From assembly GCA_030533385.1 (NCBI GenBank), contig JAUNJG010000014.1, forward strand, positions 1 through 40,978: a DNA stretch of 40,978 nt. Direction: 5' to 3'. Source of the stretch: Eubacteriales bacterium. GTDB lineage: Bacteria > Bacillota > Clostridia > Lachnospirales > Lachnospiraceae. The position numbers and the translations under genes are program-made. A model generated the notes under the pieces. The model worked only from the letters and a program-made list of their open reading frames with translations, had not been told where the DNA came from and did not search any database. Below, piece after piece: positions 23,895 through 40,869 of the stretch; the first letter of the stretch is position 1; each line of letters opens with the position of its first letter.

Positions 23895-24695
23895 CTAAGT
23901 CATTTTCTGGTTTGCCACCTTAAACTGTGTGCGTTCCATCGCTTTTAAACTGTTCAGATTTTGTATAGATATTTCTCCGTCGGTAATAATCATATCAATT
24001 TCATCCACAGAAAGAATATTCGCAAATGTAATTTCTCCAAACTTAGTGCTGTCGCAAAGTAAAATTTTGCGCTCCGCCCGATTGAGAATCTGCCTTTGCG
24101 ACGCTGCAAGTGCAAAATCACTAATCGTCGGCCCTGTCTCAAAACTAAAGCCTGAACACGAGAAAAAAGCTTTATCTACATTAATTCTATTCGTTATTGC
24201 ATCAGAAAAATCCATATAATAATAATGCTTTCGCACATATCCACCAAGCACAAACACATTGTGTTCTGTATTGTCATCTACCCATTTTGCAATACTCAGG
24301 TCATTGACAACAATCGTCAGTTTTTTCTTGTTGGTTAAAGTTTCTGCCAAAGACATGACTGTAGTCCCTGCCAAAAGGGCAATCGTATCTCCATCCTCTA
24401 TTTCCATGTTAGCCGATGCAGCAATACTTGCCTTTTTGTCAGCATTATATGACATTCTGTCCGAGACACTGGACTCTGCCCCGACTCTGGATAAGTTGAT
24501 AGATACGGCGCCGCCGTGCGTCCTGCGTATCTTACCGTGTTTTTCCAACGTTGCAAGATCATTTCGTATTGTAGATGGTGAAACGTTAAACTGATCAATC
24601 AAATCATTCACGCTGACACGTTTCAATTCATTGATATATTCACAAATTAATCCCTGCCGTTCAGATACAAAATAATTTGTATTGCCACTCGCCAT
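23895..24695 (-). CDS. DeoR family regulator of the PTS/RLP operon
   Basis: 266 aa. The DeoR helix-turn-helix is at about 10-60 (ICEYINELKRVSVNDLIDQF, SPSTIRNDLATLEKHGKIRRTHGGAV) and the DeoRC sugar-phosphate-sensing domain at about 75-245 (GDTIALLAGTTVMSLAETL, DKAFFSCSGFSFETG). Family members usually repress catabolic operons until a phosphorylated sugar binds. It is the last gene of the operon, and the tandem decamers at 36371-36400 are the natural operator candidate. GAGGTG precedes the ATG. Confidence 0.9.
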   Translation of the reverse strand: MASGNTNYFVSERQGLICEYINELKRVSVNDLIDQFNVSPSTIRNDLATLEKHGKIRRTHGGAVSINLSRVGAESSVSDRMSYNADKKASIAASANMEIEDGDTIALLAGTTVMSLAETLTNKKKLTIVVNDLSIAKWVDDNTEHNVFVLGGYVRKHYYYMDFSDAITNRINVDKAFFSCSGFSFETGPTISDFALAASQRQILNRAERKILLCDSTKFGEITFANILSVDEIDMIITDGEISIQNLNSLKAMERTQFKVANQKMT

Positions 24696-24739: not shown

Positions 24740-25048
24740 TTAAAACCTCTTTTTTCTTTGTTTTGCCAATTGTTTTTTTGCTTTTTTCTCATCAAAACCT
24801 TCCAAAGATGCTATAGATTCCGCTCCGAAAGAAATCAAAACCTCATCTGGAAAACACCGTATGACATACCCTCCGTCAGAAACTGCATCTACTTTGCCTC
24901 GTATGCCATCCACCGTATAGACAACGGAACCGATGCCTATACTATGAATCATCATAGACTGCCGCTTTTGTCTGTTTCGCTCGGGCAACAGCAAGGTACA
25001 ATAAACGATGATTACAACGAACAGAATCATGACTGCACTGACTATCAT
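24740..25048 (-). CDS. YajC-like small membrane protein, second copy
   Basis: 102 aa from the ATG at 25048 (GAAGGAG nine bases upstream); the ORF can be extended to 25084 but then overlaps the previous gene. One membrane helix (about 3-22, VSAVMILFVVIIVYCTLL) is followed by a basic linker and a small beta-rich domain (IGSVVYTVDGIRGKVDAVSD) like that of YajC, the accessory subunit of SecDF-YajC. The C-terminus is Lys-rich. It lies five bases after a paralogous gene, inside a sugar-uptake operon, where true yajC would not be expected. Confidence 0.6.
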   Translation of the reverse strand: MIVSAVMILFVVIIVYCTLLLPERNRQKRQSMMIHSIGIGSVVYTVDGIRGKVDAVSDGGYVIRCFPDEVLISFGAESIASLEGFDEKKAKKQLAKQRKKRF

Positions 25049-25053
25049 AATGC

Positions 25054-25323
25054 TTACTCCTTCAAAACTTCCCTGATCCCCCATTTCGCAACTTCCAGAC
25101 GTATTCCAGACGGCTCCACCGACAGGATCACAGCATCATCCGAAACCGACTCCACATATCCCAGCAGACCGTTTCGGGTACACACCTTACTGCCGCTCGA
25201 TAGCGCCATAAGGTCCTCCTTCAGCCGTCTCCTGGAACGGATTCCCGGAATAAGGATTGCAAAAATTGCCACGAGCAACAGCAAAATCAGACTTACTAAC
25301 TGATAAATATAGTAATTTTCCAA
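25054..25323 (-). CDS. YajC-like small membrane protein, first copy
   Basis: 89 aa with a TTG start preceded by AAGGAGG. One membrane helix (about 7-28, YQLVSLILLLLVAIFAILIP) is followed by a YajC-type domain: SGSKVCTRNGLLGYVESV, then a VILSV strand and a KWGIREVL end. The pattern V-T-x-GLxGxV with a following acidic turn is that of YajC. It may assist membrane insertion or assembly of the PTS IIC protein or another partner; this is speculation from position. Confidence 0.6.
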   Translation of the reverse strand: MENYYIYQLVSLILLLLVAIFAILIPGIRSRRRLKEDLMALSSGSKVCTRNGLLGYVESVSDDAVILSVEPSGIRLEVAKWGIREVLKE

Positions 25324-25730: not shown

Positions 25731-27479
25731 TTATTCTGATTCATTTGTTGATTCCATCTGGATATGTTCCTCAAATCGCTCCAGACATTGCTCTATTTCC
25801 TGCGCCGTTTTCATTCTCAGCACCTCGTCCGCCAGCGCTTTGGCGTCCGCCATTGTGATGCTCCTTATCCTTCGTTTCAGCTCCGGCACATTCGTTATGC
25901 TAAGACTCAGCGCCTTAACACCCAGGCCGATGAGAACCGGGGCCGCCTTGTATTCACCCGCCAGTTCCCCGCAGATACTCAGCGTTTTTCCTGCCTTTTG
26001 AAATACCTCCGCCAACATCCCAAGAATACGGAACACCGCAGGATGATAATCCTGATAATATTCCTTGACATCGGAATTCATCCTGTCTGCCGCACAGAGA
26101 TATTGTGTCAAATCATTTGTCCCCACGCTGGCAAAATCTATCTCATCTATCATTCTGTCGGCGATCAAGGCCGCAGCCGGAGTCTCAATCATAATTCCAA
26201 TTTGGATGTCCTTATTCCATTCCACATGTTTTTGATCCAGCTCTTTTCCAACCTCATAAACAATATCTCTGGCTCTCCGAAATTCATTCAGAGAAGTAAT
26301 CATCGGAAACATCAGCTTTAAATTTCCCCAGGCAGATGCCCGCAGAGCAGCGCGTATCTGTGTTCTGAAAATATCTTCGTGGGTCAGACAAAGTCGAATT
26401 CCTCTGTTGCCAAGAAATGGATTCTCCTCTGTTGGAAGTTCCATGTAGGAAACCTGTTTATCTCCTCCAATATCCAACGTTCTGAGAACAACCGCCTTCT
26501 CTTGGAATGCCTGCGCCACCGTCTTATATGCCTGGTACTGCATTTCCTCCGAAGGAAGCTGATCCTGGGACAGGTATAAAAATTCACTTCTAAACAAACC
26601 GACCCCATCAATAAAACGAATGCGCTCTTTTCCACGGATTTCGGGAGATGCCAAATTGACCCGAATCTCAATTTTTTGACCGTCCTTTGTTACGGCTTCC
26701 TTTTCCAGATATTTCCGGTTGATTTCCAAAGCTTGTTCGATTCTATCCCGCTCCTTCTCATAATGACGGATTTCCTCTTCCGATGGACGAAGCACCACCT
26801 CTTCCTTGACTCCATCCAGGATGACGGTCTCGCCATCACGCACAAGATCAGTCAAGCCCTCACACCCAAGAATCGCCGGAATATCCAAACTTCTTGCTAT
26901 AATTGCAGTATGAGAAGTCAAGCCACCTTTTTCTGTGATAATCCCCATAATATGATCCAGGTCCAGAGACAATGTATCAGAAGGAAAAAGTTCCTCCGCA
27001 ATGACAATACAAGGTTTCTCTAAATCGGACAATTTCTTTTCCGGCACTCCATGCCAGCACCGCAGCAGACGGGATAGCACATCCCGCAAATCGGCAGCTC
27101 TCTCCTGAATGACCTCATTTTTGTTTGCCGAAAAAATCTGTATATAATTTTCGTAAACCTGTACCATTGCCGAATCCGGGTACATTCTGTCTCGTCTAAT
27201 CAGAGAAAGAATCTCCTCCTCCATAACCGGATCCAACAAAATCTCTTCGTGCGCCTGTACAAAAGCCTCCTGGTCACCGCCTTTTTGCTTCATTTGTTCT
27301 CCAAGTGCTTCCAGCTCCCCTCGGGCCTTTTGTTTTGTCTCCTTGTATCTGGCTATCAAAGCCTCCACATCCTCGGTATCATCGTAGGTCCTCAAACTTT
27401 TATCGCAGGAAAACGGAACATATACCAATGCGTCGCCCACAGCGATTCTTGACAGTACCGACTTACCTTTTTTTATCAT
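25731..27479 (-). CDS. PTS Enzyme I (phosphoenolpyruvate-protein phosphotransferase), operon-dedicated
   Basis: 582 aa from the ATG at 27479, close to the usual 570-575. It transfers phosphate from PEP to HPr. The active His190 lies in GGLTSHTAIIARS; the PEP-binding half shows LMFPMITSLNEFRRARD, DFASVGTNDLTQYL and the conserved Cys in SICGELAG. An in-frame ATG at 27551 lies inside the intercistronic hairpin and is not favoured. Presence of its own EI and HPr inside a sugar operon suggests insulation from the general PTS, or a locus transferred as a complete set. Confidence 0.92.
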   Translation of the reverse strand: MIKKGKSVLSRIAVGDALVYVPFSCDKSLRTYDDTEDVEALIARYKETKQKARGELEALGEQMKQKGGDQEAFVQAHEEILLDPVMEEEILSLIRRDRMYPDSAMVQVYENYIQIFSANKNEVIQERAADLRDVLSRLLRCWHGVPEKKLSDLEKPCIVIAEELFPSDTLSLDLDHIMGIITEKGGLTSHTAIIARSLDIPAILGCEGLTDLVRDGETVILDGVKEEVVLRPSEEEIRHYEKERDRIEQALEINRKYLEKEAVTKDGQKIEIRVNLASPEIRGKERIRFIDGVGLFRSEFLYLSQDQLPSEEMQYQAYKTVAQAFQEKAVVLRTLDIGGDKQVSYMELPTEENPFLGNRGIRLCLTHEDIFRTQIRAALRASAWGNLKLMFPMITSLNEFRRARDIVYEVGKELDQKHVEWNKDIQIGIMIETPAAALIADRMIDEIDFASVGTNDLTQYLCAADRMNSDVKEYYQDYHPAVFRILGMLAEVFQKAGKTLSICGELAGEYKAAPVLIGLGVKALSLSITNVPELKRRIRSITMADAKALADEVLRMKTAQEIEQCLERFEEHIQMESTNESE

Positions 27480-27525
27480 ATCATTACCCGCCTTATCATT
27501 TTGTAATCTGTGTTTCTTATTAATC

Positions 27526-27571
27526 AAAAACGGCAGAATTGATGGAATCATTCAGCATCAATCCTACCGTT
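27526..27571 (-). terminator. Intercistronic hairpin between IIC and Enzyme I
   Basis: A 16-bp stem with two G-T wobbles (27556-27571 with 27529-27544), loop of 11, ending in TTTTTGAT on the minus strand. It looks like a partial terminator that would lower EI and HPr expression relative to IIABC, or protect the upstream mRNA. Confidence 0.6.
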
Positions 27572-27589
27572 CCCATTCAATTATCATTT

Positions 27590-29032
27590 TTATGCGGCTG
27601 CGGACTCATGGCTCATATACTGATCCACATATTTCTCTGTGGCTCCAAAGAACATATACCATGCTTTTCTATTCTTTTTAAAATGTAACAACGTGGCAAG
27701 GTATATCGCTACACAGACAGCCCCGAGAATATATTTCATCGTGCCAGGAGCGGAAAACGCCTTGTACACAAGATACATTGGCGGTTGACAGGAAACACAC
27801 CAGCTCACCACATAAGTCTGTCCCTGCTCAAGTATCGTGCCCGCTTTTACCGCTGCCTGGGTAAACAGCTCCGCTGTATCACTGGCAATATAATGCGTCA
27901 GAGAGTACCAGATTGTACCTGTGATTGCACTCTTTAAGATATCACCCTGGAATACGGCAATCGCACCAATGGCCATAAACGGCATAGCAGGAATGTCTGC
28001 CAGAGGGATTGTTCTGTTTCCAGGGAGAATAACAGCTGTGACAATCAAAATAGGAATCAAAAGCAACCCTGTTGTAAGCGTAGCCGTCTCTCCAAAGTAT
28101 ACGGCCGGATCAATACCGATAAGGAAAAACTTTCTCTTTACCTTTCCTGATCTCATTCTCGCATTCATTGACTGGCTGATTGGCACCAGACCTTTGACAA
28201 ACATACCCGATACAGTAGGGTAAATCACAAGCATGGCAGCCAACGTCAGTGCAAATTTCAAAATTACAGACCAGGTAGAAGGATCAGTCAGGACATTCAG
28301 ATACGCCACAATACCGAGAATCATACCCATGATAATTCCGATCATGGCAGGCTCTCCGAGGAATCCCAGCCTTTTTTGCAGAGAGTCCGGATCCAGGCGA
28401 ATTTCCTTAAACTTCATCTTATTAAACAGCCATCGAAGAACAGCTGCCAGAAGGCTGATATTAATGACACAGGCACAGGTGCAGGTCAGACCGTCATATC
28501 CATAGTATTCCTGCAGTGCTGGTGCCAAAATATCTGCAATGAGCAACAGAATTAAATTCATCAAAAGGGTAGCGACCAGAGCAATGGCAAAACTTCCCGT
28601 CGCAAACTGAACAAACAGCCCCCACACCACGAAATAATAATAATTCCAAATATCCGTCGGCTCAAAGGTATCTGTTACTTTCAGAGAAAATAAAAGAATA
28701 TTCCACGCCAGTCCGATAATAAAATACAACATTCCAAGAGAATTGTTGTACACGATTGCAGCGGCGGCAGGCCATCCAATGTCCACGACATCAAACTGTC
28801 GTCCTGTATTCTGGGAAATTAACGTCATAACCGTATTCATTTCTCCCCAGAGTATGCCGAGAATCAAATTGAACGCAGTCAGACCAATGGCCATAAATAC
28901 AGCCGCCCGAAATGCCTTCTGAACCTCCACTTTGATCAGGAGCGCCAGAATAAATACAATCAGTGGAACAAGAATAGTTACGCCAAATATGTCCAAAAAC
29001 GACTTAAATACAGCGGCGACATGATTCAACAT
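27590..29032 (-). CDS. PTS IIC membrane permease, galactitol family
   Basis: 480 aa, about 10-12 membrane helices (for example FGVTILVPLIVFILALLI, AFRAAVFMAIGLTAFNLILG, VKGLVPISQSMNARM). The order with IIB and IIA and the overall pattern fit the Gat family, whose members carry galactitol, arabitol-like polyols or related sugars. It moves and phosphorylates the substrate using IIB. The substrate cannot be told from sequence by eye. It is 17 bases after IIB. Confidence 0.88.
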   Translation of the reverse strand: MLNHVAAVFKSFLDIFGVTILVPLIVFILALLIKVEVQKAFRAAVFMAIGLTAFNLILGILWGEMNTVMTLISQNTGRQFDVVDIGWPAAAAIVYNNSLGMLYFIIGLAWNILLFSLKVTDTFEPTDIWNYYYFVVWGLFVQFATGSFAIALVATLLMNLILLLIADILAPALQEYYGYDGLTCTCACVINISLLAAVLRWLFNKMKFKEIRLDPDSLQKRLGFLGEPAMIGIIMGMILGIVAYLNVLTDPSTWSVILKFALTLAAMLVIYPTVSGMFVKGLVPISQSMNARMRSGKVKRKFFLIGIDPAVYFGETATLTTGLLLIPILIVTAVILPGNRTIPLADIPAMPFMAIGAIAVFQGDILKSAITGTIWYSLTHYIASDTAELFTQAAVKAGTILEQGQTYVVSWCVSCQPPMYLVYKAFSAPGTMKYILGAVCVAIYLATLLHFKKNRKAWYMFFGATEKYVDQYMSHESAAA

Positions 29033-29049: not shown

Positions 29050-29360
29050 TTATCCTTTGTTAAAGATTTCTTCAATTTTGTCCAGAAGCTGTTGGGAAAA
29101 TTCCTCCTTGCCGACTCCCGTAAACATTGGAAGACCGATCATAACCGGAGTTCCTTCATTATTTTTTGCATCTGTTTTTCCGGTGGCAACTATAATATCC
29201 ACCCCTGTTAATCTTGGAATTTCCGTTATTTTTTGAGGTGTAATCTTATAAGAAATTGAATGTTTCTTCAATAACTTCTCGATCTCCTCCGTACTACAGT
29301 TGTCGTAAAGATTCCGCCTCCGCAGCAAACACATATTCGTATTGTTTTTGACTGTGCCAT
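29050..29360 (-). pseudogene. PTS IIB, galactitol family, interrupted by a one-base frameshift
   Basis: The ATG at 29360, six bases after AGGAGG, opens MAQSKTIRICVCCGGGIFTT, the GatB-type active loop with the phosphorylated Cys13. That frame reads VVRRRSRSY and stops at 29268. The rest of IIB (EEIEKLLKKHSIS, DIIVATGKTD, PVMIGLPMFTGVG, to 29050) is in another frame, open from 29334 but without a ribosome binding site or the Cys. Inserting one base near 29290-29292 (GTAGTA-N-CGGAGGAG) would restore VV(A/T/S)EEIEKLL, matching GatB. The result would be about 103 aa. Either the strain lost the PTS or the sequence has an error; the rest of the operon looks intact. Confidence 0.75.
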
Positions 29361-29408: not shown

Positions 29409-29879
29409 CTAAGCGAGCATCCCATCCAGCAACTCATTCATGATATCAATCACTTCTTTTTGAGATTTTGCTTCTATCAGCTCCGTTATTTTTTCTTTGT
29501 TTGAAAAACTTTGTGCAAATCGTCTCAGAATTTCCAAATGACTTTTAGGATCCAGTATTCCAAACAAAAATACGATTCTAATCTCCAGTTTTGTACCGGA
29601 CCTGTCCATGGACAAGAACTCAACTGGCTCTTCCAACGTGGCAATACACACGAAAGATTTTTTGCATCCCACGTCAATGTGCGGAATCGCCACCGGTATC
29701 GGCAGCTCCAAACCTGTCGGGAACTCTTCCTCCCTCGCCAATATGGCCGGAAGGTAAGAATCGTCCACCAGTCCTTGTCCTTTTGCAAGACCGGCAAGCG
29801 TTCGGAGTACCTCTTCCCTGTCGCCCATTTTCTGATTCAGCAAAATCAATCCTTCATTTGCTGTCATCTTCTCTGACAT
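29409..29879 (-). CDS. PTS IIA, fructose/galactitol-type
   Basis: 156 aa, a single PTS EIIA type-2 domain. The phosphorylated His is expected to be His67 in PIPVAIPHID; upstream EEFPTGLEL and the tail HLEILRRFAQSF fit the family. It accepts phosphate from HPr and gives it to IIB. AAAGGGGGG precedes the ATG. It is encoded 48 bases before IIB. Confidence 0.9.
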   Translation of the reverse strand: MSEKMTANEGLILLNQKMGDREEVLRTLAGLAKGQGLVDDSYLPAILAREEEFPTGLELPIPVAIPHIDVGCKKSFVCIATLEEPVEFLSMDRSGTKLEIRIVFLFGILDPKSHLEILRRFAQSFSNKEKITELIEAKSQKEVIDIMNELLDGMLA

Positions 29880-29972: not shown

Positions 29973-30791
29973 TTACAAGAAAAACTTTCTGATCACATGT
30001 GCTATTCCTCCATGGTCATTATCCTGCGTGATAAAGTCAGCTTTACTCTTCGCCAGCTTATCTGCATTTCCCATGGCTATTCCCAAACCGGCAAATTCGA
30101 TCATCTCTATATCATTCTCGCTGTCGCCAACTGCTATCAGTTCCTGCCTGTCAATATTCAGGATGGATAAAATCTTTGACAAAGCCTCCTTCTTACTTCT
30201 TGCCGTTACATCTATGCCGTAATCCCGGTCATTGATTCTTGTCCTTCCCCATGGGGCACAAAGTCCCATAGCCATCATCTCTTTTTCTGTCTTTAACAGA
30301 GACGTCCTGTCAGACATGAGAGAAATCTTGCCAACCGGAGTTTTCTCCTGAAGCAACGAAAGTTCCTCAACATAAAAAATTTCCTGATTCATCATTTCCT
30401 GAAAAAGACAATGAAAAGAACTGCCCTGACCTTTTGAATATACCTTCTCCCCGATAAAAACCAGAGGATAGAACCCATTCGCTTCCGATGCCTCTAACAA
30501 AATCTGCCTGTCCCTCACGGACATGAGCTTTAATTCCGACCTCACATTTGTCTCTTCAAACCACACAATGTGACTGCCTCCCTGGAGAATTGCGACATCT
30601 CCTTCTTTGTTCAAGATATCTCCGTATTCTAAAGTCTCCTCAAGGGTGCGCCCGGTAACAGTAATCAGCCGAACGCCCGCCTGCCTTAACTCCTTCAGGG
30701 CATTCGCATCATCTTTTCCTATTCGATGTTGCGTGTTCAGCAACGTGCCATCCAAGTCAACAGCCAGAGCTTTATATTTCTTTTCTTTCAA
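29973..30791 (-). CDS. HAD-superfamily (Cof-type) phosphatase
   Basis: 272 aa from a TTG at 30791, chosen because GGCGGAGG lies 7-8 bases upstream; an ATG at 30809 has no good site. HAD motifs: AVDLDGTLL with nucleophile Asp12 and Asp14, VTGRT, a Lys in ARSKKEAL, and VGDSENDIEMIE. A type-2 (Cof) cap lies between. Such enzymes remove phosphate from sugar phosphates. In this operon it may release the end product or clear a toxic phosphorylated intermediate. Confidence 0.88.
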   Translation of the reverse strand: MKEKKYKALAVDLDGTLLNTQHRIGKDDANALKELRQAGVRLITVTGRTLEETLEYGDILNKEGDVAILQGGSHIVWFEETNVRSELKLMSVRDRQILLEASEANGFYPLVFIGEKVYSKGQGSSFHCLFQEMMNQEIFYVEELSLLQEKTPVGKISLMSDRTSLLKTEKEMMAMGLCAPWGRTRINDRDYGIDVTARSKKEALSKILSILNIDRQELIAVGDSENDIEMIEFAGLGIAMGNADKLAKSKADFITQDNDHGGIAHVIRKFFL

Positions 30792-30830
30792 AGCAGGAAC
30801 CTCCGCCATTTCTTTTTGTAAGTGATAACT

Positions 30831-30901: not shown

Positions 30902-32218
30902 TTATTTTTTCAGGTCAAACATTTCCTGATTGACACCTTCTCCCCAAAGATCCAAAGCCACCTTTAAGGACTCGCAGTCTTTTGCTGCCTCCTGAAGCGG
31001 AATACCCTCAGCCGTAGCTTCGGCCGCCCGAATCAGACTTTCTACACCTGCGGCTGCTCCCATCGGATGTGCGTGCATTGCAGCACCTGCGGAGATGGAG
31101 AAATCCAGTCCAAGATCCGATGCAACATCAGGAATCAAGCCCTGATATACACCTGCGGCCGGTCCCGGGAAGGTGCGCTTCATGCCGTGAAGTTCCGTCA
31201 GAAGAGATTGTGCAATTCTGATATATCTTTCTCTGTTAATATCTACCTTGCCATACGCACAAGGGTAAATGACAATGTCCGCACCACACATACGCATGAA
31301 TTTTCCGAGAATCAGATGACTGGAAACTCCTGAATAATGAGATTCATACATCGCCCCGGCAAAAGCTGGGTGTGCCAGAATCGGAAGGTCAATCTCATCA
31401 TTTTCTGCAATCATCTGCATAGATGGCCAACCTACGGTCAGAGTATTAATCATCAGTCCAGGTATACCCATCTCCTTGCACATTTTAGCCTTATCAAGCA
31501 TACGGTCCGGACGGTCCGTAATATTCGGGGAATAAATCACTTTCTTTCCGGTTCTCTCATAGACATCTTTTAAAATATCAGCTGCAATTTTTGCTCTCGC
31601 CTTCACAGTACAATAATCTGTATCGCTGAAAAGCTCATCATCCTTAATCCAGTCAATTCCCGCCATGGCAAGTTCTCTGATTAATTTGCCGGCATTTTCC
31701 GCCGTCGCACCTGTACACGGTTTAATCATACTTACGATAAACGGACGTTTTGAAACACCTGTCAGTTCTCTTAATCCTTCCACGCCAAATCTAGGGCCTT
31801 TGAAGCCGTCTGTAAACACTTTCGGGAAATCAATATCCAGAAGCTTCAGCTTACCTGCCATGGAAATATTTCCGATCACGGAGGTCAACACCTGCGCAAG
31901 GTTTGCTCCCATGTTTTCAAATGGAAATGCAATCTGGAATACTGCCATGCGCTCTTTTCCTCGCGCTTCAACCATATCGAACTCATACCCCGGAATCTCA
32001 TGAACTGCAATCACCTTGCCGCCATGCCGTCTTCTTACTTCAGGTGTTTCCAGCGGAACAGGCGCCCATGTTCCTGTTGTCTGCTCAATTGCCATGGCAC
32101 CTACCTTGTTCAACAGATCTGACGTATATCCCTCGCACAGGTATGTACAGATAATGTACTGCTCTCTGTCAATGGATTCCGGAAGTTTAAATATATTCGG
32201 ATCATATTTTGTTTTCAT
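30902..32218 (-). CDS. RuBisCO-like protein (RLP, form IV)
   Basis: 438 aa, RuBisCO large-subunit length. N-terminal domain: AMAIEQTTGTW with Glu45, and SVIGN with Asn117 (RuBisCO E60 and N123). Barrel: SMIKPCTG with Lys166 (K175), but Cys in place of K177; AGIDWIKDDELF with Lys192, Asp194 and Glu195, the carbamylated Lys and Mg ligands; HPAF with His283 (H294) but Pro instead of R295; SSHLILGKFMR; AYGKVDI (Lys324, probably K334); and SAGAAMHAHPMG in the phosphate loop. Metal activation is kept while carboxylase residues are altered, so it is not a carbon-fixing RuBisCO. Known RLPs enolise, isomerise or decarboxylate phosphorylated keto compounds. Here it probably acts after the Glp-like oxidation. 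GGAGG precedes the ATG. Confidence 0.9.
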   Translation of the reverse strand: MKTKYDPNIFKLPESIDREQYIICTYLCEGYTSDLLNKVGAMAIEQTTGTWAPVPLETPEVRRRHGGKVIAVHEIPGYEFDMVEARGKERMAVFQIAFPFENMGANLAQVLTSVIGNISMAGKLKLLDIDFPKVFTDGFKGPRFGVEGLRELTGVSKRPFIVSMIKPCTGATAENAGKLIRELAMAGIDWIKDDELFSDTDYCTVKARAKIAADILKDVYERTGKKVIYSPNITDRPDRMLDKAKMCKEMGIPGLMINTLTVGWPSMQMIAENDEIDLPILAHPAFAGAMYESHYSGVSSHLILGKFMRMCGADIVIYPCAYGKVDINRERYIRIAQSLLTELHGMKRTFPGPAAGVYQGLIPDVASDLGLDFSISAGAAMHAHPMGAAAGVESLIRAAEATAEGIPLQEAAKDCESLKVALDLWGEGVNQEMFDLKK

Positions 32219-32357: not shown

Positions 32358-33386
32358 TTATTCACATATATACTCTAAAAGAGTCTTTACTGTTTCTCCC
32401 TCTGCGCAATTCAGCCCAAGGGCTTCACATGCACACGGAGTGACAATCACATCCTGCCCACAGGCAGAAAGATCCATCATTCTGCGTTTGGCAATGACGA
32501 CAAGGTTCCCCGGCTCTGCCAGTCCAAGTCCTCCTGCAATTCCAGAATCTGTGACGTCGAATCCATTTCTCTGAGGTAGCTTCACCTCTGATTTCGGGAA
32601 CAGTTCGCAATAATCTACTTTGCGCCCCGGATAAAGTCTCTCCACAACTCCGCTCTCATGCAGCGTGATGTTTTTTTCCGGAAGAGAAAGATATTTTCTG
32701 ATTTCAAAACAAAATTCATCAATAAATTGAATTTTCTCTCCTAATTCAGGACAAAGAACAAGCAAGGCATCTAAAACATAGCTGTCATCCGTAACGATTC
32801 TTTCATATTTACCCAATTCAGACATCAGTTCGCCCGCCAGTGCATTGGCGCGATCCATTTGACCCAACTGAAGAAGCAGATAACCGCAGTCTTTATATTG
32901 GTTCGTACATCTCACACGCTCTCCCGCCTCTCCGGCGACCTTGCTAAACTGCTTTGCCGTTTTCTTCGGATCCATTGCAGATGGACTGATCAAAAAGATT
33001 GTCTGGGCATCCTTTTCTCCTTCTTCATACTCGCTAAACTGCTTAAACACTGACTCGCCTGCCAGCACGTTCTTCGTAAACGCTTTATATTCTTCCGGAA
33101 CTTTGTCTCCTGCTACAAGCTCGCTTCTGATGTAACGCATCACTTCCGTTACGGGCGCATCATCGATGCTTCTTGTGTCCGCTTCATAATTGTCCGTTGC
33201 GGCAAATGCCTCTTTTGCCACATACTGCATGTCAAACCTCGTGCCCATGGCTGTAAATACAACACCCATGCCCGAAGAAACGTCCACGCCCATAATTCTG
33301 CTCACCGGAGCAAAATCTGCAATGATATCACTTGTCAGGCAATTTGCTGTTCTGTAATATAACTTCGTAAACTCCTGCGCTACCAT
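32358..33386 (-). CDS. GlpC/CCG-domain-like protein lacking Fe-S cysteines
   Basis: 342 aa. It aligns by eye with GlpC, the Fe-S electron-transfer subunit of anaerobic glycerol-3-phosphate dehydrogenase. Where GlpC has two CxxCxxCxxxCP clusters, this protein reads NCLTSDIIADFAPVSR (15-30) and NYEADTRSIDDAPVTEVM (66-83); the CP positions are AP. The two CCG-domain motifs read KDCG (165-168) and TDSGIAGGLG (279-288) instead of CCGxxG, and the Pro-Cys-His helix start is LHESGVVER. VTPCACEAL (315-323) is the only well-kept Cys site. So the fold seems retained without the ligands for normal clusters. It starts 14 bases after the GlpB-like gene. Family assignment is by motif order only. Confidence 0.65.
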   Translation of the reverse strand: MVAQEFTKLYYRTANCLTSDIIADFAPVSRIMGVDVSSGMGVVFTAMGTRFDMQYVAKEAFAATDNYEADTRSIDDAPVTEVMRYIRSELVAGDKVPEEYKAFTKNVLAGESVFKQFSEYEEGEKDAQTIFLISPSAMDPKKTAKQFSKVAGEAGERVRCTNQYKDCGYLLLQLGQMDRANALAGELMSELGKYERIVTDDSYVLDALLVLCPELGEKIQFIDEFCFEIRKYLSLPEKNITLHESGVVERLYPGRKVDYCELFPKSEVKLPQRNGFDVTDSGIAGGLGLAEPGNLVVIAKRRMMDLSACGQDVIVTPCACEALGLNCAEGETVKTLLEYICE

Positions 33387-33400
33387 ACTGTACCTCCTTC

Positions 33401-34708
33401 TTATAAACTTGCAGCCGCAGATTTTGCCGCCATGTACGCAGAGGATACGGCGACACCTACGCCGCTTCTCTCACTTGCGAAATTCTGGCCTGCCAGAAGA
33501 TTGCCGCACGCATAGATGCGACTTTTGTACGCTTCATCTGCCACAGCCATCTTCTCATCTACTTCCACACCAAGACGGATGAAATCCTGCCCCTTGCCGT
33601 TCACTACATCTCTATCCAGAAGATCCACGCCGACTTGTCCAAGATTCTGATTCAACAGCTCAATCCACACTTCCGTCTTTCTTGCCCTGATTCCTCCACC
33701 TACGAATCCTCCCGTGGCAAGTATCATGCTGTCTGCCTCATAGGTTTTCTTTTCACCTGGATGAAGCTGGTCTGTAATGCCGGATAAACACTGTGCAACT
33801 ACCCTGTCGCCCTCGACGGATATTTCTTTTACAACAGTTCCCCTTTTTACATCCACTCCCTCTTCTACAAGTCCTCTGTACAAGGCGCGTGTAAGACGGT
33901 AACCCACAACAGAGTTTCCTAGCGTCTCAACCTCTCCTACAGCGCATCCACACGCCTCTCTTATTTTTTGAATCACCGATGCATACTCCAAATATCCAAG
34001 GGCCGGCGGGAACAAAATTTTATCAAAATGATATCGGTTGTTCCGGCAAAATGTCGTCACGGCATCAAGAAGCTCTGTCTGTCCTTGCTCCGTATCCAGA
34101 TAATCTGCAAGTTCTCCGTCGCTGATCTTCCTTCTGTCTCCCCAGCCGGAAAGTGCAATCTCGGTTGAGTAATACTCTGCCTTGCCACCCAGCTTTTTCT
34201 GGTATTTTTGGTAGGATACCGCTGCGGATGATGCATGAAACGCCACGTTCCCCTTGATTCCCACCACAAGCACTTTTTCTTTTTTTCCCGGAACAAGTAC
34301 AGAATCCTTTAACGCTTCCGGGACGTAGGCATTGACGGTAAAGGTTCCCATTATGTTTGGCACCCAAACATTTCTGCCATCAAATCCATACATGTCATAT
34401 CCGCCTTCACCGGCGAGCCTGACTGCCGTCTTTATCCCTTCTGAAAGACTACACCGCGTTTTTTTGTAAATATGATTCGGATACTTTTCCAGCAACAAAT
34501 CAATCCCAGTTTCAAACGCATCACAAATCTCCGGCTCCTCTCCCGGAACTACTCCAAGGATGTCAAATGCCCCACCGCAGATTTCTGTATTTCCGCCATT
34601 GGAAAAGAGCATCGTCACCTTTTTGCCTTCTTCCCTGACTGCCGCGGCGGCAACACATGCAGCGATTCCGCCGCCCACAACTAATACATCGCTATTATTT
34701 TTGTTCAT
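33401..34708 (-). CDS. GlpB-like flavoprotein subunit
   Basis: 435 aa from the ATG at 34708 (AGGAGG seven bases upstream); an in-frame TTG at 34714 is too close to that site. N-terminal dinucleotide fold DVLVVGGGIAACVAAAA, then SNGGNTEICGGAFDILG and the C-terminal flavin-binding end IYACGNLLAGQNFASERSGVGVAVSSAY. The pattern, including KKEKVLVVGIKG and DSMILATGGFVGGGI, matches GlpB of the anaerobic glycerol-3-phosphate dehydrogenase complex. It is five bases from the GlpA-like stop site region (34720), indicating a fixed stoichiometry. A membrane or quinone-linked role is inferred from E. coli GlpABC. Confidence 0.82.
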   Translation of the reverse strand: MNKNNSDVLVVGGGIAACVAAAAVREEGKKVTMLFSNGGNTEICGGAFDILGVVPGEEPEICDAFETGIDLLLEKYPNHIYKKTRCSLSEGIKTAVRLAGEGGYDMYGFDGRNVWVPNIMGTFTVNAYVPEALKDSVLVPGKKEKVLVVGIKGNVAFHASSAAVSYQKYQKKLGGKAEYYSTEIALSGWGDRRKISDGELADYLDTEQGQTELLDAVTTFCRNNRYHFDKILFPPALGYLEYASVIQKIREACGCAVGEVETLGNSVVGYRLTRALYRGLVEEGVDVKRGTVVKEISVEGDRVVAQCLSGITDQLHPGEKKTYEADSMILATGGFVGGGIRARKTEVWIELLNQNLGQVGVDLLDRDVVNGKGQDFIRLGVEVDEKMAVADEAYKSRIYACGNLLAGQNFASERSGVGVAVSSAYMAAKSAAASL

Positions 34709-34719
34709 GACCAATCCTC

Positions 34720-36351
34720 CTATTCCAGACTTAATACATCATAGCTGGCAGTATTCACATACATCTGCTGCATTAATTCAGACAGCGGGAGCTGATCGCC
34801 ATACTGAGCCGCAAAATAAACACCTTTCCATCTTTCCTGCGCATATCCAAGAACACAATCTTCTGCTTTTTCCACCGTCTTTCCCAGTTCTTCCTGAATA
34901 ATCGCACCTGCTTTATAAATAGAAAATGTACCCTGTTCCTGTCCCATTCCCAATCTGGTACGTCTGCGCAAATCTTTAAAGTTTTCTACATTTTCCTCTT
35001 CAAAACTGTAACAAACCTCTGAACCTATCATTTGTACCGCATCATCAATGATGTATGCCTGTTCCGGATACCTTTCCAAAATTGCTTTTGCAAATTTACC
35101 ATATCTGGCGGTAAATTTGTGTGCCGCATAATGAGGAATATGGTATTTTTCATGGATTTCTTTCGCATCCTTTTCCGCCTCATCTTTAGAGGTGGCACCG
35201 TAAATCAGTTCTTTATGTGAAGTACATGGAATCACTTTTCCAACCAGTTTCTCACAGGCAAGATCCACCGCTTCCTCCGCCATCAATCGTGCGGTTGCAT
35301 ATTTTCCACCTGTGATCGTAATAATGCCTGCAACGCCTTCCATCTCCTCATGATCTAAGAGAATCATTCCTCTACTGATATCTCTTCCCGTCTCCGCACC
35401 CGTCGTGTACAAAGGTCTGACACCGGTACACATACGAATCATCCTTGCCTCTCTCAGCTCCGGAATGATTTCTGCCACGGAATCTTCCATAATCTTAATT
35501 TCATCCATTCCCGGTTCTGCATCATCAGGATCATCCACATCCACCGAAGAAGTTCCAAGCAACGCCGTATTCTGATATCCCTGGCTGACAAGCCCATCGC
35601 CGTCATCCGGCACACGAAGAATACCAATCAAGACCGTGGTAGGCCTCATACTGTAGATTCCCGTGGAACCTTTGTTCGGCTTCATCGGAATCGCAAATCC
35701 CGCCATCTCCGTAATCTGGGAACACCATGGGCCTGCTGCGTTAATGATGACTTTTGCATACACTTCATAAATTCTGTTTTCCGTTTTATCTAAAACCCTA
35801 AGACCCACAACACGATTTTCTTCCATCAATACCCCAATCACTTCATGGTGGGTCCTAATTTCGGCTCCCTTCATCTTTGCGTCATATGCCTGAGCAATAC
35901 ATAGTCTAAACGGATCAAAACCTGTATCAATCGTTCTAAGTGCAAACTTGATATCCTTTGAAAGAAGCGGCTCTGCCTCCACTGCCTCCTCAACAGATAT
36001 AATTTCGTATGGAAGTCCGATCTCATCTGCATTTTTCATCCATAATTTTGAAAACGCAATTTGTTCCTCCGTTTTTGCAACCCAGATTGCATCTGTCGGA
36101 TCCACTACCTGAGGAACGATCTCGCGATACACCTGATTTTCCTGAAGGCATTCTTTCGCCGTCTGGATGTCAGAAACTACATAACGTGAACCACCGTGCA
36201 AAGCGGAGTGGCATCCTCCTGATGTACCTGCCGCCAAATCATCCCTTTCCAAAAGAAGAGAATTAGTAAAACCGCGAAGCACCAGGTCACGAATCACTCC
36301 CGTTCCCGTCGTTCCGCCGCCAATAACAATTGCGTCATAGGCTTGTCTCAT
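34720..36351 (-). CDS. GlpA-like FAD-dependent dehydrogenase with a degenerate BFD [2Fe-2S] domain
   Basis: 543 aa, first gene of the operon. FAD-binding AIVIGGGTTGTGVIRDLVLRG (8-28, Gly-rich loop), ERDDLAAGTSGGCHSALHGG (35-54) and ITGGKYATARLMAEEAVDLA (347-366) are typical of GlpA/GlpD, which oxidise glycerol 3-phosphate to dihydroxyacetone phosphate. The C-terminal BFD-like domain of GlpA normally holds CxC and CQGxxC. Here these read CYS (447-449) and EQGTFS (472-477) within RRRTRLGMG-EQG context, so three of four ligands are gone, while the downstream ERWKGV block is kept. An alternative polyol-phosphate substrate is likely given the PTS. GGAGG precedes the ATG. Confidence 0.88.
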   Translation of the reverse strand: MRQAYDAIVIGGGTTGTGVIRDLVLRGFTNSLLLERDDLAAGTSGGCHSALHGGSRYVVSDIQTAKECLQENQVYREIVPQVVDPTDAIWVAKTEEQIAFSKLWMKNADEIGLPYEIISVEEAVEAEPLLSKDIKFALRTIDTGFDPFRLCIAQAYDAKMKGAEIRTHHEVIGVLMEENRVVGLRVLDKTENRIYEVYAKVIINAAGPWCSQITEMAGFAIPMKPNKGSTGIYSMRPTTVLIGILRVPDDGDGLVSQGYQNTALLGTSSVDVDDPDDAEPGMDEIKIMEDSVAEIIPELREARMIRMCTGVRPLYTTGAETGRDISRGMILLDHEEMEGVAGIITITGGKYATARLMAEEAVDLACEKLVGKVIPCTSHKELIYGATSKDEAEKDAKEIHEKYHIPHYAAHKFTARYGKFAKAILERYPEQAYIIDDAVQMIGSEVCYSFEEENVENFKDLRRRTRLGMGQEQGTFSIYKAGAIIQEELGKTVEKAEDCVLGYAQERWKGVYFAAQYGDQLPLSELMQQMYVNTASYDVLSLE

Positions 36352-36895: not shown

Positions 36896-37183
36896 TCACC
36901 TCGCCTGACAGGCATTCCCTAAAATTTCCTGCAAGGCATTCTGACTGCTGGTATGACAGCGGACAATCTCCGCCTGACATTTTTCCGCCTCCGCCACGGC
37001 GCAACGCACCATTTTGTGAGATACGGTATTGGTAAAAAGAATCAACAAATCCGGCTTTCCAATCTGGGTGCTTAAATTTCCCCTCATCTGGGTAAAGATT
37101 TTCGCCTTGCACTTATGTTCTTTACAGATTTTTTTATATTGGGACACCATGCGGTCATGTCCTCCTACGATAACAACACTCAT
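36896..37183 (-). CDS. DUF2325 family protein
   Basis: 95 aa from the ATG at 37183, chosen for GGAGG five bases upstream; an upstream in-frame ATG at 37246 would add a Cys-rich 21-residue stretch (CAADCKGRC) and cannot be excluded. The family pattern is SVVIVGGHDRM at the start, then FTQMRGNLSTQIGKPDLLIL, FTNTVSHKMV and IVRCHTSSQNAL. The family has a Rossmann-like fold and no settled function. It is monocistronic, with a strong promoter and a terminator. Confidence 0.75.
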   Translation of the reverse strand: MSVVIVGGHDRMVSQYKKICKEHKCKAKIFTQMRGNLSTQIGKPDLLILFTNTVSHKMVRCAVAEAEKCQAEIVRCHTSSQNALQEILGNACQAR

Positions 37184-37288
37184 TTTTGCCTCCATTCTTC
37201 CGGCGAGGGAGCACCGTCCTTTACAGTCCGCCGCACATTGACTCATGCGAACTTTCCACCGGCCGATTCACTCCTCATCCTTGTTTGG

Positions 37289-40101: not shown

Positions 40102-40869
40102 TCAGAGAAACAGTTCGTTATTTTTCCGTTTGGAACACACTTTTTTCATTGCCAGTGCAACAGCGGAAACCATAAGTTTATTTAGAGTGCGGGCTGATTG
40201 CGGGCATATCGATACGCAACGCATACAGGAAATACATTTCGAGCCGTCTGTATGTTGATTATTTTCATAGCTGATTGCCTGCGCCGGACATTTTTTTGCG
40301 CACAAACCGCAATTAATGCAATTTCCTTTGGTTTTCGGCACTAAGCCGGAGCCGCCCGATTTCTTGTACGGATGGTTGCCGGGCAGATCCAGAATTTTAT
40401 TTTCGGCTGCACCGTCATCTATTTTTTTCATAATTTGTTTTGCAAAGCCGCATAGCTCCGCCTTATCTTTGCCGTCCGGTCTGCCGGTCGCATATTGATG
40501 CATAATAGAGTGTTCCGCTATTGCGGATATTGCCGCAATGACCCGAAAACCGCTGTCTTCCGCAATATCATTCAGTTCAACGAGCGTGTCCTCGTATGCC
40601 CGGTTCCCATAAACACAGACAAGAACACATTTTGTTTGATTGCCGTGAAGTCTTTTTATTCTTTCGACCGCAAGAGCAGGCACCCGTCCGCCGTACGAAG
40701 GAACGGCAATAACGGCAACATCTTCTTTTTCTAAAATGATATTCTCAAAATCCGTTTTCCAATCCGTCAGGTCAATTTTGGAAACCGTTCCGCTTAATTC
40801 ACTTGTAATGATATTTGCAACTTTTTGTGTTCCCCCCGTCGGGCTGAATGTAATCTCTGCAATCTTCAC
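40102..40869 (-). CDS. EFR1-type flavodoxin/ferredoxin fusion protein
   Basis: 255 aa with a GTG start preceded by AGGAGGG. The N-terminal flavodoxin-like domain carries the FMN phosphate loop SPTGGT (9-14) and PSYGGRVP (57-64). The C-terminal domain is a 2[4Fe-4S] ferredoxin with Cys184, 187, 190, 194 and Cys212, 215, 218, 222 (CINCGLCAKKCP, CISCMRCVSICP). It would act as a cytoplasmic one-electron carrier; its partners are unknown. Unlike the Glp-like proteins of the same window, its cluster ligands are complete. Confidence 0.9.
   Translation of the reverse strand: MKIAEITFSPTGGTQKVANIITSELSGTVSKIDLTDWKTDFENIILEKEDVAVIAVPSYGGRVPALAVERIKRLHGNQTKCVLVCVYGNRAYEDTLVELNDIAEDSGFRVIAAISAIAEHSIMHQYATGRPDGKDKAELCGFAKQIMKKIDDGAAENKILDLPGNHPYKKSGGSGLVPKTKGNCINCGLCAKKCPAQAISYENNQHTDGSKCISCMRCVSICPQSARTLNKLMVSAVALAMKKVCSKRKNNELFL

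Follow-up and report, generated by a model that had tools for sequence, protein, structure and literature searches.

What is left of a GlpABC-type dehydrogenase when the cysteines that should hold its iron-sulfur (Fe-S) clusters are gone, and where would its electrons then go? This question is raised by three genes of a Lachnospiraceae genome (Eubacteriales bacterium, assembly GCA_030533385.1; 2.7 Mb in 174 contigs; genome G000, 92% complete) that lie on contig JAUNJG010000014.1, whose 40,978 nucleotides were analyzed whole and are referred to here as the window. A sequence-only reading of this DNA had proposed adjacent genes for GlpA-, GlpB- and GlpC-like proteins, and three minus-strand open reading frames (ORFs) bear this out (Table 1), with 5 bases between GlpA' and GlpB' (11 if counted from the GlpB' ATG) and 14 bases between GlpB' and GlpC', the prime marking the proteins of this unusual kind. 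On the minus strand the cluster reads glpA'-glpB'-glpC', then a gene for a RuBisCO-like protein (RLP), a HAD phosphatase gene, the genes of a galactitol-type phosphotransferase system (PTS) and a PtsI-like gene. The reading that we favor, with a probability of about one half, is that the trio would be a soluble, flavin-only relative of GlpABC which oxidizes a polyol phosphate imported by the PTS and feeds the RLP, GlpC' being kept as a scaffold and the electron relay having been dropped in hosts free of quinone.

E. coli GlpA holds the [2Fe-2S] cluster of its bfd domain with C434, C436, C470 and C475, and these cysteines align with D436, A438, E472 and S477 of the window protein. The same D, A, E and S occupy these positions in all six species-level loci that we class as Fe-S-free, namely the window, L005 (Mediterraneibacter massiliensis), L006 (a Lachnospiraceae metagenome-assembled genome, MAG), L007 (Schaedlerella arabinosiphila), L008 (a Hespellia MAG; L016 is the same contig with identical ORFs and was counted once) and L015 (genome G138), whereas four cysteines are present in E. 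coli and in the related locus L014 (genome G214). The trio is found in several gut Lachnospiraceae, the family to which we assign the named relatives that carry it. The alignment upholds EQGTFS at 472-477 in place of CQGxxC as first read, whereas the CxC position had been misplaced at 447-449 (CYS): it is 436-438 (DDA), and C447 is unconserved, being Ala in L008. When the L014 GlpA was searched against 249 genomes of the phylum, 26 matches were listed, that of the own genome included. All 17 near-full-length matches carry the four bfd cysteines and seven of the eight shorter ones carry both motifs, so that 24 of the 25 other matches keep them, the exception being L107 (400 aa), which ends before the domain. 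As these 24 and E. coli retain all four, chance or misalignment was rejected as the source of the loss in GlpA'. A second, canonical GlpABC was also sought in the window's own genome and none was found, the other three GlpA matches there being 24-26% identical over part of their length only. The 400-aa GlpA-like ORF without a bfd domain (L107/L138; L138 3516-6560, minus strand) adjoins two GlpC-like ORFs, each corresponding to a separate portion of GlpC; one of the two begins, as judged by eye, like succinate dehydrogenase B.

Outside the lost cluster site, GlpA' retains the features of a dehydrogenase. Its DAO fold is recognized through PF01266, and Pfam and NCBIfam place it in the DAO/GlpA family, while the curated GlpA models are both missed (TIGR03377, 477.4 bits against a cut-off of 552.8; NF008313, 397.1 against 425). 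The residues aligned to H50, R54, Y55, R317, R332 and K354 of the E. coli GlpD active site are all retained.

The second cluster-bearing subunit is altered more extensively. Canonical GlpC proteins share 18 cysteine columns, 17 of which are Cys in 18 of 18 sequences and one in 17 of 18, and GlpC' of the window keeps only three of them (C16, C167 and C318). The replacement of xCP by FAP in the first ferredoxin motif and the degraded CCG motifs KDCG and DSGIAGG had been read correctly; for the second ferredoxin motif the loss of cysteines stands, the ligands aligning with A63, N66, A69 and S73, but the "DAP" given for it is a proline a few residues downstream. Pfam finds neither a Fer4 nor a CCG domain in the window GlpC', and the protein matches no Pfam or NCBIfam family at all. 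E. coli GlpC exceeds it in length by 54 residues, and both GlpC' and the L014 GlpC are without a segment of about 60 residues that in canonical GlpC lies between the ferredoxin portion and the CCG portion. Residues 1-90, the former ferredoxin region, are invariant among the six loci at 63 of 90 positions versus 96 of 252 elsewhere (Fisher p 1.9e-7, relatedness ignored). Because this is the best-conserved stretch of GlpC' despite the loss of its ligands, it has probably taken on another function, the simplest being that of an interface.

Whether this loss is derived can be judged from two loci that keep more cysteines. L014 has the same gene order (A-B-C-RLP-HAD-EI-PTS); its GlpA has four of four bfd cysteines and matches Fer2_BFD, and its GlpC has eight of eight ferredoxin cysteines with Fer4 matches, keeps two of the ten CCG-module cysteine columns and scores just above the cut-off of the CCG model. 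Identity between the window and L014 is 89% for the RLP, 68% for GlpA, 36% for GlpB and 25% for GlpC. The other locus, L137 (G955:C133:5001-18234; same phylum, other family), encodes PtsI-like, gat-type IIA, IIB-like and IIC proteins, RLP, GlpA, GlpB and GlpC, with a PHP-like ORF on the other strand close to the contig end; its GlpA carries CEC and CQGTLC, its GlpC has all 18 cysteine columns, and its RLP and IIC are 40% and 47% identical to those of the window. Since L014 and L137 combine a like set of genes with a fuller set of cysteines, the loss in the other loci is derived. Homologs in the same gene order that retain every cysteine were thus found only in part: L014 has the order and has lost CCG cysteines, and L137 has all cysteines with the RLP gene before GlpABC. 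Sharing of the loss among genomes with the same gene order, on the other hand, holds in six of six close loci and partially in L014. Trees of GlpA and of GlpC, built without L137, unite the six Fe-S-free sequences in a single clade (100/99) with L014 as sister; they carry long-branch warnings for other rows.

Ordinary decay, by which the trio would be a GlpABC in degeneration that no longer serves any function, is hardly credible on this evidence. Decay would be in keeping with the broken PTS IIB frame of the window assembly and with the faster evolution of GlpB' and GlpC' compared with GlpA' (59-83% identity for these two, 84-96% for GlpA'). Against this, trio and RLP are present in all six loci with open trio frames, the replacement residues in GlpA' are identical, conservation within GlpC' is highest in the former ferredoxin region, and dN/dS is far below 1: for L006 and L007, the only two loci between which dS is unsaturated in each of the four genes and the pair on which these values mainly rest, it is 0.026 for GlpA', 0.145 for GlpB', 0.089 for GlpC' and 0.009 for the RLP. 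The trio genes look to be under purifying selection, and a pseudogene status was ruled out by dN/dS and conservation. The view that loss in both cluster-bearing subunits is a coordinated change and not decay is therefore supported, as the loss is common to six loci whose genes appear to be under selection.

From this coordinated loss of cysteines we infer an alternative electron route and a structural GlpC'. One way around the need for a new route would be a relocated cluster, and here GlpB' has to be considered. Pfam and NCBIfam assign it to the GlpB family, although it misses the cut-off of TIGR03378 (126.7 of 174.15 bits), and its dinucleotide-binding start GGGxx(A/G) is kept in six of six loci. 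Four cysteines (C62, C221, C253 and C255, numbered from the ATG), the last two forming a CxC, are present in all six loci although only 44% of GlpB' columns are invariant; L014 has V, K, L and I there, and 18 canonical GlpB sequences have Cys at these columns 2, 0, 0 and 4 times. If these residues bound a [4Fe-4S] cluster or zinc, the relay would persist elsewhere in the complex. Their spacing of about 160, 32 and 2 residues is not known to match any motif, Pfam reports no Fe-S domain in GlpB', and the gain of cysteines is not special to this subunit, since GlpA' C210 and GlpC' C167 and C327 are likewise invariant among the six and are not Cys in L014. We regard such a relocation as quite improbable.

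If the relay is gone, there are other ways in which the flavin of GlpA' could be reoxidized. According to PMC11962113, GlpD, GlpO and a GlpA-CoxG enzyme of Sulfolobus are without the four C-terminal cysteines, and the Sulfolobus enzyme is active; dehydrogenase chemistry as such needs no cluster, because these glycerol-3-phosphate dehydrogenases lack it. GlpA' could then act alone in the manner of GlpD and GlpO, passing electrons to flavodoxin, electron-transfer flavoprotein, an NAD-linked partner or trace O2, with GlpB' and GlpC' stabilizing or regulatory. Besides this precedent (PMC11962113), the fact that GlpA' is by far the most conserved subunit fits, but GlpB' and GlpC' are kept in six of six loci, their dN/dS is low in the only pair that could be used (L006 and L007), and GlpB' has an intact dinucleotide-binding start, all of which makes this option unlikely.

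Alternatively, GlpA' and GlpB' could form a redox-neutral pair in which GlpA' oxidizes and a fumarate-reductase-like GlpB' returns the electrons to a later intermediate or an organic acceptor, no external carrier being required. GlpB' has an FAD_binding_2 fold, a comparison with PDB sequences at E<=0.01 yields two flavocytochrome c fumarate reductases and nothing else (E about 0.006, residues 3-57 only), and on inspection of the loci we noticed no electron-carrier gene common to them. The hosts presumably belong to anaerobic families, which would also suit such a pair. The proposal is nevertheless unlikely, as canonical GlpB carries out no such reaction despite sharing this fold, and flavin-to-flavin transfer without the bfd cluster is an assumption. 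Its more elaborate form, in which GlpA' and GlpB' swap electrons without a metal relay, GlpC' serves as a bracket, and oxidation and reduction are coupled around the enolization by the RLP to give a redox-neutral sugar-alcohol pathway, would be less likely again.

The soluble, flavin-only reading draws instead on the quinone context. GlpABC gives electrons to menaquinone and GlpC is its membrane anchor (PMC11962113). Quinone genes were searched for in four Lachnospiraceae genomes (G000, G138, G036 and G214), with the Fe-S-free hosts of L005, L006 and L007 outside this set. MenD was above cut-off in none of the four versus seven of 14 control genomes, and PF02621 (MqnA/D of the futalosine route) was found in none of the four versus four of the 14. 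All four genomes have weaker matches to the MenD model, which probably represent other thiamine-diphosphate enzymes. A relay without any quinone to supply would be free to be lost.

The nature of the substrate has to be approached through the neighboring genes, and first of all through the RLP. This protein scores below the cut-offs of the profiles for MtnW, the DK-MTP-1-P enolase (NF007095, 373.1 bits against 409), and for OiaX, the 3-oxo-isoapionate-4-phosphate decarboxylase (193.4 against 700). Aligned to 2oek, it keeps K166 of the IKP motif and the K192-D-D-E motif and has N117 at the position of K98, the base of MtnW. The RLP is probably an enolizing enzyme and not a methionine-salvage enolase, a role that was rejected on the score below the MtnW cut-off and the N at K98. 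Glycerol-3-phosphate is probably not the substrate, given that the trio stands next to genes for an RLP, a galactitol-type PTS and a phosphatase; these neighbors point to a PTS-imported polyol phosphate. A ketose 1-phosphate, expected if GlpA' oxidizes beside the phosphorylated carbon in the way known for glycerol-3-phosphate, would have the local structure that RuBisCO-type enzymes enolize.

The PTS IIC matches nearly the full TIGR00827 model (251 of 542.2 bits); it likely belongs to the GAT family, and its specificity for galactitol is putative. IIA and IIC are present in all seven loci (the six and L014) and a PtsI-like gene in five of the seven, none having been found in the L006 and L007 stretches. 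Enzyme I-like genes also come after canonical GlpABC in L119 and L122. The IIB gene, split into two frames in the window, is open in L005, L008, L014 and L015, and the break at 29050-29360 on the minus strand would be an assembly error or a recent break. Two types of transporter occur: the IIC of L014 (87% identical to that of L015) and a PucR-type regulator are common to L005, L006, L007 and L015, whereas the window and L008 combine a DeoR regulator with a second kind of IIC, their two copies being 79% identical and sharing about 45% identity with the first kind. Since the RLP (89%) and the IIC (87%) are preserved while GlpB and GlpC have diverged, the change in the electron chain is not tied to the transporter type or the RLP. 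A HAD, a PHP or a PHP-HAD fusion protein is encoded in seven of seven loci. The composition of this phosphatase slot differs: it holds a HAD only, a PHP only, the two as neighbors or the two fused (L005 12416-14134; L015 6075-7762; L006 8946-9872; L007 12421-13350). Upstream in L005 lie an FGGY kinase and homologs of L-ribulose-5-phosphate 3- and 4-epimerase, which would suit a released pentulose; no close copy of them is present in the available stretches of the other six loci. Directly upstream of the trio in L008 (4567-6606, plus strand) is an ORF resembling, by eye, old yellow enzyme/enoate reductase, not noticed beside the trio elsewhere and a possible electron outlet in that locus.

Other RLP neighborhoods were sampled for comparison (14 + 15, n=29, several on short contigs). 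A GlpA-like dehydrogenase is near five of the 29 (L045, L078, L081, L083 and L084, three of them from the window's genus), an FGGY kinase is nearby in four of these five (the L083 contig ends), and the bfd cysteines are kept in all five. These five loci make up a second RLP gene cluster; in L081 the neighbors identified by Pfam are a Pyr_redox_2 flavoprotein, DUF1667 and a HAD phosphatase. A gat-type PTS is near the RLP in three further neighborhoods (L046, L071 and L082). GlpABC stood beside none of the 29 RLPs, the one such case, L137, having come from the GlpA search. GlpA-type dehydrogenases recur beside RLPs; loss of the cysteines does not.

Taken together, the genes suggest a rewired, soluble oxidation of a phosphorylated sugar alcohol, in which we infer the substrate, the order of events past the observed states, the scaffold role and the electron exit. 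The PTS would bring in a sugar alcohol as its phosphate, and GlpA', by means of FAD, would convert it to a ketose-phosphate by placing a keto group on the carbon beside the phosphorylated end. Enolization of this product by the RLP would lead to epimerization or a shift of the ketone, and a HAD or PHP phosphatase would free the final compound. In quinone-free Lachnospiraceae the clusters directed toward menaquinone would have been discarded, the CCG modules of GlpC first (the L014 state) and then the ferredoxin clusters together with the bfd cluster of GlpA. GlpC' would have been retained as a scaffold, and electrons would leave from the flavin of GlpA' or GlpB' to a soluble acceptor.

Several observations weigh against this proposal. 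The L014 host is also without MenD above cut-off or PF02621, yet it keeps its ferredoxin and bfd sites, so that lack of quinone cannot alone explain the further loss in the six. The absence of a noticed acceptor or carrier gene common to the loci offers no partner for the electron exit, and the two cysteine-richer states are known from one genome each. The homology of GlpC' to GlpC depends on L014 as a bridge, because the direct comparison is weak: hhalign of the six GlpC' against the canonical GlpC profile gives a probability of 10% (E 0.003), and among the six the CCG model is touched by L015 alone (E 0.12), while GlpC' matches the L014 GlpC at E 2.3e-30. The L014 GlpC in turn matches the TfrB and LdhH models better than GlpC, which leaves descent of GlpC' from the textbook GlpC putative. 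The four new cysteines of GlpB' may form a relocated metal site, and the complex may then hold metal; the term Fe-S-free is correct for the canonical sites, whereas for the whole complex it is likely and not proven.

The spread of the trio is patchy. GlpC' matched four of 397 genomes of the family, its own and G214 (29%) included; alignment A1 matched two of 111 relatives of G138 and one of 107 relatives of G036, these sets overlapping; and GlpA' at E 1e-60 matched three of 150 genomes. The L014 GlpC matched two of 291 genomes of the class, the own one and G418, whose two matches sit outside any GlpA cluster. No match was obtained for GlpC' among plasmids or for alignment A1 among viral contigs, and no close RLP was found in the 23 other same-genus genomes listed (best E 2.1e-111, versus about 1e-300 in this clade). 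This distribution suggests horizontal transfer of the cluster.

Table 1. Genes of the window cluster and its surroundings
Feature	Position	Strand	Description
GlpA'	34720..36351	-	543 aa; FAD-dependent polyol-phosphate/glycerol-3-phosphate dehydrogenase-like subunit; PF01266 E 1.4e-42
GlpB'	33401..34714 (ATG 34708, fitting homologs)	-	FAD_binding_2/fumarate-reductase-like flavoprotein subunit; PF00890
GlpC'	32358..33386	-	342 aa; ligand sets lost from both ferredoxin motifs and both CCG modules
RLP	30902..32218	-	438 aa; PF00016; MtnW-like profile, below cut-off
HAD (Cof-type) phosphatase	29973..30809	-	PF08282; TIGR00099 above cut-off
PTS IIA, fructose/galactitol type	29409..29879	-	models below cut-off
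PTS IIB-like	29050..29360	-	reading frame broken in window assembly
PTS IIC, probable galactitol family	27590..29032	-	TIGR00827 E 1.9e-74, below cut-off
PtsI-like enzyme I paralog (phosphoenolpyruvate-protein phosphotransferase)	25731..27551	-	TIGR01417 above cut-off
Small ORF	24740..25084	-	646 bases past the PtsI-like gene; similar ORF in L008
DeoR-family regulator	23895..24695	-	AgaR/GlpR/SrlR models, below cut-off

The small ORF past the PtsI-like gene, which we take to be YajC-like, is perhaps a unit separate from the PTS cluster. Upstream of GlpA' the window encodes a DUF2325 protein (36896-37246, minus strand), apparently outside the cluster, and a flavodoxin-like protein with two C-terminal ferredoxin-type cysteine motifs (40102-40869, minus strand; EFR1-like by eye). 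An Rfam scan across the window gave no match at gathering scores, and counts from a promoter and terminator scan were close to shuffled means. Neither an Fe-S-free GlpABC nor a GlpABC/PTS/RLP cluster was found described in the literature searched, a scope from which subscription papers were largely absent.

Compared with GlpABC of E. coli and Haloarchaea, the window trio is alike in the order A-B-C, in the DAO fold and active site of GlpA, in the GlpB flavoprotein and, through L014, in GlpC. It differs in being without all four bfd cysteines and 15 of the 18 GlpC cysteines, in adjoining a PTS and an RLP, and in its fit to the models, GlpA' and GlpB' falling below cut-off and GlpC' matching none. 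GlpD, GlpO and the Sulfolobus GlpA-CoxG enzyme are likewise flavin dehydrogenases without the four cysteines (PMC11962113), but they are without GlpB and GlpC partners, while the window trio keeps both along with a ligand-less bfd-like domain. The five RLP loci with a GlpA-like gene share that pairing, and where the FGGY kinase is seen a phosphorylated polyol is expected; unlike the window they keep the bfd cysteines (CRC and CQGGFC or CQAGFC), and L081 has its Pyr_redox_2 flavoprotein and DUF1667 instead of GlpB and GlpC. MtnW and OiaX share the RLP fold and the KDDE motif with the window RLP, which differs in its scores below both cut-offs and in the N at K98, with the IKP lysine present. 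L137 is alike in its PtsI-like protein, gat-type PTS, RLP, GlpABC and PHP-like ORF and unlike in its complete GlpA and GlpC cysteines and in its order, with the PTS first and the RLP before GlpABC. The combination of PTS, RLP and GlpABC thus exists with the whole relay, and the bare form is derived. Set beside these systems, the window trio offers a clear case of a multi-subunit Fe-S dehydrogenase stripped of its electron relay, with the catalytic subunit and the partner genes in place and with the cysteine-richer relatives L014 and L137 alive today. It opens to direct test the part that GlpB and GlpC play once their clusters are gone, and it points to an RLP pathway for PTS-imported sugar alcohols of which no account was found in the literature searched.

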